40,227 nucleotides of DNA, taken from the NCBI GenBank assembly GCA_018608245.1, contig JABAZY010000019.1, forward strand, positions 90,782 to 131,008, in the 5' to 3' direction. Both the position numbers and the translations under genes were made by a program. This DNA is from Alphaproteobacteria bacterium (GTDB lineage: Bacteria > Pseudomonadota > Alphaproteobacteria > Micavibrionales > Micavibrionaceae). Shown in pieces: positions 7,508 through 9,953 of this stretch (position 1 is its first letter; each line of letters starts with the position of its first letter). The notes beneath the pieces are model-generated. The model saw only the letters and a program-made list of their open reading frames with translations, ran no database searches and was not told where the DNA came from.

Positions 7508-8575
7508 TTAAATTTTATCTTTAAGGATAGTGACATGACCCATTTTACGACCCGCACGGGCTTCAGCTTTTCCGTATAAATGCACAGAAGCGTTAGGCAT
7601 CTCCATGTATTTAGGCACGTCCTTCACATCATCGCCAATCAAATTAATCATCTCAGCATGATGGTGAGGCTGTGTAGAGCCTAAAGGAAGTCCGCAAACT
7701 GCACGGACATGGTTCTCAAATTGTGAGGTAGGGCAGGCTTCAATCGTCCAGTGACCAGAGTTGTGTGTGCGGGGTGCTATCTCATTAGCAACAATGTCGC
7801 CATTAATTATAAATAACTCTAAGGTCAGTATACCGACCAAATCAACCGCTTCAGCTATCTTCTTAGCCATCTTTGCTGCTTTTTCTTGTATTTCCAATGG
7901 GATATCAGCAGGTGCTATGGTTTTAGATAGAATGTGATTGCTGTGTTCGTTCATTACAGCAGGGTAGCTGGCCACATTTCCAAGCAAGTCTCTCGCAACG
8001 ATAATTGATGTCTCATAATCAAATTTAATTAATCCTTCAATTACAGCTTCTTCTGTATTTAAACTTACCCAAGACTCTTGAGAATTACTGCTATCACTAT
8101 GAAATATTTGACCTTTTCCATCATATCCGAAACGCGCCGTCTTAATAATACATTCTGATGTCTGCCAGTCGCGTAACGTGTCATCAATATCACTTGCACT
8201 ATGGCAGGGTGCCCAAGGGGCTGTTTCTATGCCAATAGAGTTAAGGAAAGCCTTCTCTTTCAAACGATTCTGGGAGCATTCGAGCAGTTTTTTCTCTGGA
8301 TAAACGGGCTTTAATTTAGCTAAAAAATCTATTGTTTTCAGTGGGATATTTTCAAATTCATAAGTAATAACATCAACTGAACTAGCGAACTTACTTAAAG
8401 CACTCTTATCTTCGTAATCCGCACAAGTGAAATAGGGGGTGACAAGCGAGGCTGGGCAGTTATCTTCTGGGCAGTATATGTGCGAATTGATGCCCAATTG
8501 CGCCGCAGCGAGGGCTGACATACGTCCTAATTGCCCACCACCAAGAATACCTATAGTTTTTATTTCCATCTTCAT
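7508..8575 (-). CDS. purK: 5-(carboxyamino)imidazole ribonucleotide synthase
   Basis: ATP-grasp enzyme that carboxylates aminoimidazole ribonucleotide using ATP and bicarbonate, giving N5-CAIR for PurE in purine synthesis. It has 355 residues, the normal PurK length. The N-terminus is the diagnostic IGILGGGQLGRM; further landmarks are ADYEDKSAL, TYEFENIP, KTARFGYDGKGQ (ATP-grasp loop), IVARDLLGN, LELFIINGDIVANEIAPRTHNSGHWTIEAC, and a C-terminal HLYGKAEARAGRKMGHV. PurE is not adjacent as usual: a plus-strand P-loop gene lies between them, so purK has its own promoter (8584-8612). The start has no ribosome-binding site and the -10 box ends 8 nt before the ATG. Confidence 0.96.
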   Translation of the reverse strand: MKMEIKTIGILGGGQLGRMSALAAAQLGINSHIYCPEDNCPASLVTPYFTCADYEDKSALSKFASSVDVITYEFENIPLKTIDFLAKLKPVYPEKKLLECSQNRLKEKAFLNSIGIETAPWAPCHSASDIDDTLRDWQTSECIIKTARFGYDGKGQIFHSDSSNSQESWVSLNTEEAVIEGLIKFDYETSIIVARDLLGNVASYPAVMNEHSNHILSKTIAPADIPLEIQEKAAKMAKKIAEAVDLVGILTLELFIINGDIVANEIAPRTHNSGHWTIEACPTSQFENHVRAVCGLPLGSTQPHHHAEMINLIGDDVKDVPKYMEMPNASVHLYGKAEARAGRKMGHVTILKDKI

Positions 8576-8722: not shown

Positions 8723-8736
8723 GAAAAAGGTAATTC

Positions 8737-9453
8737 ATGCGCCTATTTGTCGAAGATATTTCTGTCTGGGATCCTAAAACTGAGGCAGATTGCTTTAATC
8801 CTTTTGCTACTGGTGTAATCTCTTTAACTTTTCAATTTGATGATGTACGTGGGTTAATGCTAGGTGGAAAAGTGTTGTCTAAAAATGTTTTTGCATTGGA
8901 TAAGCTAAGGCATGTAAAAGGGCGGAAAATCATGGCTATCGTAGGTAAATGCGGGGTTGGGAAGTCCCCTTTTGCACGATCTATTGTTCATGCCTTTGGA
9001 GATGTTGAAAGGACACGCAGAGGCAGCAAAATCCCTAATATTAGGAATAAAGAGTTCTTGTCCGGTACAAGCTCAAACTTAGGGCGTATTGTGTGGGGAG
9101 ATGTTATGGCGGAACAAACCTATGAGCATTCCAACTTAAAGCACCCAGCAAAGAGAGCTTCAGTAAGGTTGCGTAAGGCGTTAAAGGGGCTTGAATTAAG
9201 AGAGGCGGCAGGTCAAGACGGTTTATTGATTTGGGAACATGGGAATTTATGTGAACGGCAATATGGCTATTCTGGTTTTGATTCTGTTGCTTTTATCAAT
9301 GAGGGTTATGACCAAAAAGGGAAGAAATTAACTTTGGTGGTTGGGAAAAATGCACCGCTAAGACCTCAAATTGAAAATTTGAAAGTAGAACTTGGCACGT
9401 ATTTGGATGAAAATGCCATAAATGCTCTCCCACCACCGCAACGTCTGATGTAA
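8737..9453 (+). CDS. P-loop NTPase-like protein, possibly a divergent TsaE relative
   Basis: A 238-residue protein with a textbook Walker A at residues 70-77 (GKCGVGKS) followed by PFARSIVHAFG, which resembles the GxGKTxFARGxxxALG segment of TsaE, the ATPase of tRNA t6A synthesis. About 90 residues later LELREAAGQDGLLIWEHGN resembles the TsaE 'L-EEA..-G-hhhhEWpE' region, and the chain continues with a KLTLVVG strand. Against TsaE: it is about 80 residues longer, has an N-terminal 50-residue extension, and lacks an obvious SPTFxLV switch. So a TsaE-like fold is inference only. Start: ATG with AAAAGG 7 nt upstream. It ends 5 nt from the purE stop (tail to tail) and interrupts the usual purE-purK pair. 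Confidence 0.6.
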   Translation: MRLFVEDISVWDPKTEADCFNPFATGVISLTFQFDDVRGLMLGGKVLSKNVFALDKLRHVKGRKIMAIVGKCGVGKSPFARSIVHAFGDVERTRRGSKIPNIRNKEFLSGTSSNLGRIVWGDVMAEQTYEHSNLKHPAKRASVRLRKALKGLELREAAGQDGLLIWEHGNLCERQYGYSGFDSVAFINEGYDQKGKKLTLVVGKNAPLRPQIENLKVELGTYLDENAINALPPPQRLM

Positions 9454-9458
9454 CTGGT

Positions 9459-9953
9459 TTACTTAGGTTCTTCTGCAACTTTATTTGACTGGGTCAGACG
9501 AAATTCTTCTAATCGGCTCATGATAGCCTCGTCTGAGGTTCCTAAAATCGATGCGCCAAGTAGGGCCGCATTTTTGGCGCCTGCGTCACCTATTGCTAAC
9601 GTGCCGACGGGCACACCACCAGGCATTTGGGCAATTGATAATAAGCTATCCATTCCTTTAAGTGCTTTTGATTCAATGGGCACACCCAAAACAGGAAGTG
9701 GCGTCATGCTGGCAACCATACCAGGTAAATGAGCGGCACCACCGGCACCTGCAATAATAACTTTTAGGCCACGATCTTTCGCAGATTTGGCGTACTCAAC
9801 CATTCTGTCTGGCGTGCGGTGCGCTGAAACGATTTTGACCTCATGAGGAACTTTAAGATCATGCAGTATGTCATGGGCTTTACTCATTGTTTCCCAATCA
9901 GATTGAGAACCCATAATGATCCCTATTTGCGGATTATCGTCGGAATGTGTCAT
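9459..9953 (-). CDS. purE: N5-carboxyaminoimidazole ribonucleotide mutase
   Basis: Class I PurE, which moves the carboxyl group of N5-CAIR to carbon 4, giving CAIR. It is 164 residues, as expected. The signature [13 protein letters not shown] (11-23), [13 protein letters not shown] (about 44-56), [38 protein letters not shown] and [13 protein letters not shown] are all present, covering the substrate phosphate site and the catalytic His in SAHRTP and GGAAHLPG. The gene lies 21 nt downstream of the DUF465 gene and is probably cotranscribed with it. The upstream GGTAA is only a weak ribosome site. Confidence 0.98.

Follow-up and report, generated by a model that had tools for sequence, protein, structure and literature searches.

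Between purK and purE, and antisense to both, the stretch of DNA analyzed here (40,227 nucleotides, referred to as the window) carries a gene for what its sequence identifies as a P-loop protein (Table 1), without clear relatives apart from one very divergent open reading frame (ORF) at the same place in a genome of the same genus, G006. With slightly less than even confidence we lean toward a genuine accessory gene, restricted to this lineage, whose product is a small P-loop NTPase, and this reading includes an origin from a TsaE-type protein. The gene would then be fast-evolving and might encode a TsaE derivative whose switch residues have been lost and whose function lies outside the synthesis of t6A. 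Tentatively, then, the window holds an orphan P-loop NTPase in a variable junction, whose TsaE ancestry is seen through the G006 ORF and not in the window protein itself.

Table 1 Features of the purE-purK junction in the window and in G006
Feature	Position	Strand	Basis and remarks
purK	7508..8575	-	Pfam and NCBIfam (NF004676, E 2.5e-146); divergent from the orphan gene
AAAAAGG, candidate ribosome-binding site	8724..8730	+	Sequence reading; 6 nt before the ATG
Orphan P-loop NTPase gene (putative), 238 aa, ATG start	8737..9453	+	ORF, codon score, shuffles, weak P-loop matches
Walker A GKCGVGKS, residues 70-77	8944..8967	+	Translation; followed by an unusual Pro (GKSPF)
IWEHG, residues 165-169	9229..9243	+	Counterpart of TsaE E-W-P proposed by hand; Glu kept, Trp replaced by His
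purE	9459..9953	-	Pfam and NCBIfam (TIGR01162, E 5.3e-66); convergent with the orphan gene
G006 P-loop ORF, 187 aa	L004:1999-2562	-	purE-purK junction, antisense; same genus as the window genome

The plus-strand frame of the original prediction, with GKCGVGKSPFARSIVHAFG starting at residue 70 and IWEHG further on, is present exactly as described, and its stop codon is separated by 5 bp from that of purE. The longest stop-free run in the 883-bp gap between purK and purE measures 239 codons, a length that none of 1000 base shuffles of the gap attained (mean run 78 codons, maximum 184), and the codon score of the frame, 0.121, is the only positive one among the six frames (-0.079 to -0.403 in the others). 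Run length and coding bias make the ORF more than a product of chance, and coding support, whose weakness had been named beforehand as an argument against a gene, is positive in both respects.

The window protein contains a Walker A motif of the GxxGxGK[ST]xFxR type (GKCGVGKSPFAR, residues 70–81), which by eye stands in the usual setting, with a putative hydrophobic strand before it and a putative helix after it (RKIMAIVGKCGVGKSPFARSIVHAF). Several P-loop families match this region in Pfam and NCBIfam with E values of 0.001–0.1. The Pfam matches are weak and restricted to the P-loop: the best is NB-ARC (PF00931; E 0.0012, 38 residues at 55–92, 18.6 bits against a curated cut-off of 23.5), next to SMC_N (0.023) and RsgA (0.079); the best NCBIfam match is Lon (0.017), and an IS21 helper is also among the best profile matches. 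All Pfam and NCBIfam matches stay below the family cut-offs, and TsaE models are absent from the matches at E up to 10, a range in which the HMMER filters drop most matches above about 0.1. The PDB search gave weak P-loop matches to ATPase proteins at E 0.4 or worse, and PADLOC and PHROGs matched the window protein weakly, over its P-loop, and the G006 ORF not at all. AlphaFold produced no usable model, either for the window protein alone (pLDDT 30.0) or for the G006 ORF with the window protein aligned (pLDDT 30.9). Asp122 and Glu167, both placed solely by hand alignment, are candidates for the Walker B or catalytic acid.

Comparison with TsaE (PF02367, TIGR00150) reveals the common P-loop form GxxGxGK[ST]xFxR, a Walker A region that the window protein also has in common with NB-ARC and other P-loop ATPases, but neither the PT[FY] segment after the P-loop nor the Trp of the EWP motif. 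The P-loop begins, for the start chosen, at residue 70 versus 35 in the organism's own TsaE, which bears out the distinct N-terminus ascribed to the protein. Each of the TsaE loci (31/31) contains a reading frame in which P-loop, PT[FY] and E[WL]xx[RK] are combined; PT[FY], sought after the P-loop, is absent from the window protein and from the G006 ORF, and the missing switch of the original prediction is real as regards the SPT segment. We take the EW of the EWP motif to be E108-W109 of E. coli TsaE, and the Y of HxDxYR is presumably its Tyr82. By eye GLLIWEHG resembles the EWP motif; its score of 1.8, the third best of any position in the window protein itself, gives it no statistical support. 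The stretch GRIVWGDVMAE keeps a possible Asp and scores -8.6 for HxDxYR, a motif for which even the best site in the protein (-7.6) is matched or exceeded by 974 of 1000 shuffles.

Aligned with hhalign to 31 TsaE proteins, the window protein is covered over residues 59–89 alone. Downstream of the P-loop, 54 of 250 shuffles and 52 of 250 decoys align to the whole TsaE profile at least as well as the window protein does, and its score for the ordered TsaE motifs is equaled by 260 of 1000 shuffles and by 145 of the 615 decoys; proteins containing GKTxFxR or PTFxL were removed from the decoys so as not to include TsaE, and the decoys are not independent, because the sets contain orthologous proteins. 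TsaE accounts for three of its 12 best global and two of its 12 best local z-scores against P-loop proteins. The two best non-self matches in 385 genomes of the class are genuine TsaE proteins (E 0.0012 and 0.0057 per genome, over the P-loop region), and the third, identified by reading, is an ABC-type ATPase. The similarity of the window protein to TsaE is confined to the P-loop region, and the part downstream of it is indistinguishable from shuffles. Of the P-loop ATPase with TsaE-like features that had been proposed, the P-loop protein stands, and the TsaE paralogy is not demonstrated for this protein, which gives no TsaE signal past the P-loop.

Relatives of the window protein are correspondingly scarce. 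At E ≤ 0.001 it matches only its own genome, both among 95 relatives (1/95) and among the 385 class genomes (1/385); the weaker class-wide matches are mostly P-loop stretches, and one of the weaker matches, L051 (E 0.05), spans residues 41–234. Pattern-seeded scans of genome_contigs and IMG/VR, which depend on short exact peptide matches, returned no relative, and tblastn gave two 68-residue matches at E 0.9 in phage records and none in plasmid records. A match from Lentisphaerae (L053) covers 26 residues. With a two-row profile of the window protein and the G006 ORF, 2 of 142 genomes of the order were matched at E ≤ 0.01, namely the window genome and G006; among 104 genomes of the family the same two were joined by a 61-residue match in G039 (E 0.0098), inside a 602-codon frame. 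In the PDB this profile, too, found weak P-loop matches, with interferon-inducible GTPases first (0.0036), and TsaE at 0.085. The parts of the full-text literature on TsaE paralogs, TsaE-like proteins and purE/purK adjacency that were available to us contain no description of the gene.

The statement that purE and purK are usually adjacent holds in the relatives. purE was found in 90 of the 104 family genomes, and 85 of these loci were analyzed, the other five having purE at or near a contig end or being otherwise left out; two genomes from the order brought the survey to 87 loci. purK lies on the analyzed piece in 70 loci and not on the piece in 17, it has the same strand as purE in 70 of 70, and in 53 of these 70, among which the locus of the window is counted, the gap is at most 150 bp. 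Fourteen of the 17 larger gaps (all except those of 177, 191 and 200 bp) were examined for start-to-stop ORFs of at least 60 amino acids. The longest ORF is antisense to purE and purK in nine (L003, L004, L005, L024, L029, L098, L110, L138 and L145) and sense in four (L015, L028, L114 and L129), and L096 has no ORF of this size in the gap. Apart from the window/G006 pair and look-alike neighbors in L138 and L145, visual comparison shows no likeness among these ORFs, and not all of them need be genes. Mapping of the junction, as had been proposed, identifies by eye G006 alone as carrying a resembling ORF, in the same orientation.

Some of the other junctions merit separate description. L138 (G479) has a tandem pair of antisense ORFs, about 116 and 111 residues long, whose starts are alike (MKLLLTTTQAFAQAVA and MKISLTTTRDFAEAVA) and which seem to be copies of one small protein, and in L145 (G046) look-alike antisense ORFs of 147 and 115 residues stand side by side between purE and purK. 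Antisense ORFs of 131–170 residues in L005 (G002), L024 (G018), L029 (G030) and L110 (G052) each end within about 20 bp of the purE stop and are unlike the window gene by eye. The abutting stops, 5 and 3 bp from purE in the window and G006, were considered as a trait of this pair alone and discarded, since the stops of other antisense ORFs also lie close to that of purE. Position had likewise suggested a part in purine synthesis, which is unsupported, because 53 of 70 loci leave no room for such a gene between purE and purK and the other junction ORFs, that of G006 apart, look unlike it by eye; nothing but position ties the window gene to purine synthesis.

The evidence for TsaE ancestry comes from the G006 ORF. 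TsaE is its sole match in Pfam (E 0.019, 15.3 bits against a cut-off of 26.6) and TIGR00150 its sole match in NCBIfam (E 0.016, 15.0 bits against 60.1), both over the P-loop. Scored against an EWPER profile built from the TsaE proteins of 31 relatives, its segment TGVNIVENPERAQ is equaled by none of 1000 shuffles and none of 615 decoy segments; the motif GVNIVENPER resembles GICLIEWPER of TsaE, with the Glu kept and the Trp replaced by Asn. From this motif to the end of the protein, 1 of 250 shuffles and none of 250 decoys align as well; the corresponding counts are 11 and 14 of 250 for the whole alignment after the P-loop, and 37 and 49 of 250 for the end without the motif. HxDxYR is unsupported in the G006 ORF, its best site being reached by 422 of 1000 shuffles. 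In a comparison set made up of the window protein and 63 P-loop segments, of which 32 are TsaE, TsaE provides 11 of the 12 best global z-scores and 6 of the 12 best local ones, among which the top three are other P-loop proteins. Searches with the G006 ORF gave five matches at E ≤ 0.01 in the 385 class genomes and six weak matches in the 95 relatives, and nothing in scans of phage records and IMG/VR. On these motif and profile comparisons, the G006 ORF is probably TsaE-derived, with its EWP Glu retained and both the Trp and the SPT segment gone.

Whether this ancestry extends to the window gene depends on the relationship between the two ORFs. Junction, strand and genus are common to the two and speak for a relationship. 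Both have GK[ST]P, and Pro after GK[ST] occurs in just these two of 52 distinct GxxGxGK[ST] motifs from frames of at least 140 codons in the loci examined. The spacing from the P-loop Lys to the candidate Glu, provided that the hand-placed Glu is correct, is 91 residues in the window protein and 87 in the G006 ORF versus 67 in the organism's own TsaE. An initial shuffle test of the pair gave a global score reached by 1 of 2000 shuffles and a local score reached by 74 of 2000. The attempt to prove homology from sequence was abandoned, as the P-loop control cancelled this support: among P-loop proteins the similarity of the two ranks 13th of 64 globally and 49th of 64 locally, in a comparison biased against the pair because many of the 31 non-TsaE controls come from loci chosen as best matches of one or other protein. 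The hhalign probability for the pair is 13%. At the DNA level the ORFs are similar at chance level, as are their upstream regions (139 of 1000 shuffles as good). A purE plus purK tree covering 23 genomes places the window genome as the earliest branch of the genus (support 0.87) and puts G006 in a group with G004 and G005 (0.81), which have purE–purK gaps of 43 and 75 bp; the window genome and G006 are thus not sisters, and common descent of the two ORFs needs about three losses. Taken by itself, descent of the window gene from a TsaE-type protein is a distinct possibility, somewhat short of probable.

The search for a canonical tsaE elsewhere in the genome, recommended in the original prediction, located one at G000:C22 (E 2.1e-35), and the window genome also has TsaD and a second PF00814 match, presumably TsaB. 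G006 has its own TsaE (E 6.2e-35) and two PF00814 matches, and two such matches are likewise present in G039, whose purE–purK junction is closed. The presence of a canonical TsaE makes a housekeeping role of the window gene in t6A synthesis unlikely. In a separate locus (L033:1435-2941, plus strand), the last codons of canonical tsaE overlap a 336-residue ORF that by eye is phosphotransferase-like.

According to the parts of the published work available to us, TsaE has a seven-stranded mixed sheet (PMC9654439), and its hydrolysis reactivates TsaD–TsaB, after which ADP-bound TsaE departs (PMC11648230, PMC9654439). In E. coli TsaE, as described in the accessible portions of PMC4330362, Tyr82 is a switch II residue, E108A and T43A abolish nucleotide binding, and W109A loses the ATPase and leaves t6A synthesis in vitro intact, so that loss of the Trp need not abolish function. 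On the reading of the window gene as an accessory NTPase of TsaE-type origin, the ancestor would have lost the SPT segment and the switch residues (the counterparts of E. coli Tyr82 and Trp109), a loss that the G006 ORF would have undergone as well. The window protein would bind ATP through Lys76 and Ser77 of its Walker A motif, with Glu167 perhaps taking part in Mg2+ binding, the role of Glu108 in E. coli TsaE. Having Walker A and this Glu but no switch residues, such a protein is expected to bind ATP yet to turn over poorly; it would no longer reset TsaD–TsaB by hydrolysis, and may act instead as a nucleotide-dependent binder of another partner or as a non-cycling decoy of TsaD–TsaB.

The accessory-gene reading competes above all with an orphan P-loop NTPase from a different class (for instance AAA+/Lon-like, ABC, GTPase or small-molecule kinase), unrelated to TsaE and acquired from a phage or other mobile source, the G006 ORF being an independent insert. 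We regard this as a serious contender, if on the whole improbable. It agrees with the identity of the best profile matches (NB-ARC, SMC_N, RsgA, Lon, IS21 helper), with a window/G006 similarity no better than that to other P-loop proteins, with the various other ORFs that the junction holds in relatives, and with the separate positions of the two genomes in the tree; it has to accommodate, however, that both inserts are P-loop proteins with GK[ST]P, antisense and within one genus, that no significant phage, plasmid or IMG/VR relative was found, and that the two best class-wide matches are TsaE.

A chance ORF, or the decaying remnant of a P-loop gene whose product has ceased to be functional, we consider unlikely. 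The codon score is low compared with the 27 other genes of the window (0.082–0.435) and drops to -0.038 over one of the four 60-codon stretches, the region has about as many promoter-like sites as expected by chance (7 versus 5.3 ± 2.5 in shuffles), and no close relative was found, but a stop-free run of this length in the only positive frame, an intact Walker A motif in a typical setting and the candidate ribosome site all speak for a working gene. Still less credible is a second working TsaE, whether a duplicate for other conditions or a phage-type TsaE retuning t6A formation: the complement of TsaE, TsaD and presumed TsaB is already in place, SPT and HxDxYR elements were not found, and the window protein has no TsaE match in Pfam or NCBIfam, which outweighs for us the P-loop and EWP Glu retained in the G006 ORF, the in vitro activity of W109A (PMC4330362, as far as accessible) and the phage TsaE-like proteins on record (PMC12363180, in part). 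We give the least credence of all to a specific scenario within the TsaE reading, in which a switch-less derivative, so fast-evolving that two species of one genus barely match, binds TsaD–TsaB without cycling and tunes or blocks t6A formation, its expression opposed to transcription of the purine genes.

For the accessory P-loop NTPase that we favor, the nearest precedent we have seen is the TsaE-like proteins recorded in mycobacteriophages, which in the part of that report available (PMC12363180) are likewise extra TsaE-like proteins beyond the housekeeping copy, but phage-borne and found by predicted structure; the phage records and IMG/VR gave no significant relative of the window protein or of the G006 ORF. 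More generally, in a minority of this alphaproteobacterial family the purE–purK junction houses a mix of additional ORFs, antisense more frequently than sense. If descent from TsaE is true, the window gene would represent a cellular, switch-less offshoot of TsaE beside canonical TsaE and TsaD, and could serve to test how widely the TsaE scaffold lends itself to other uses.
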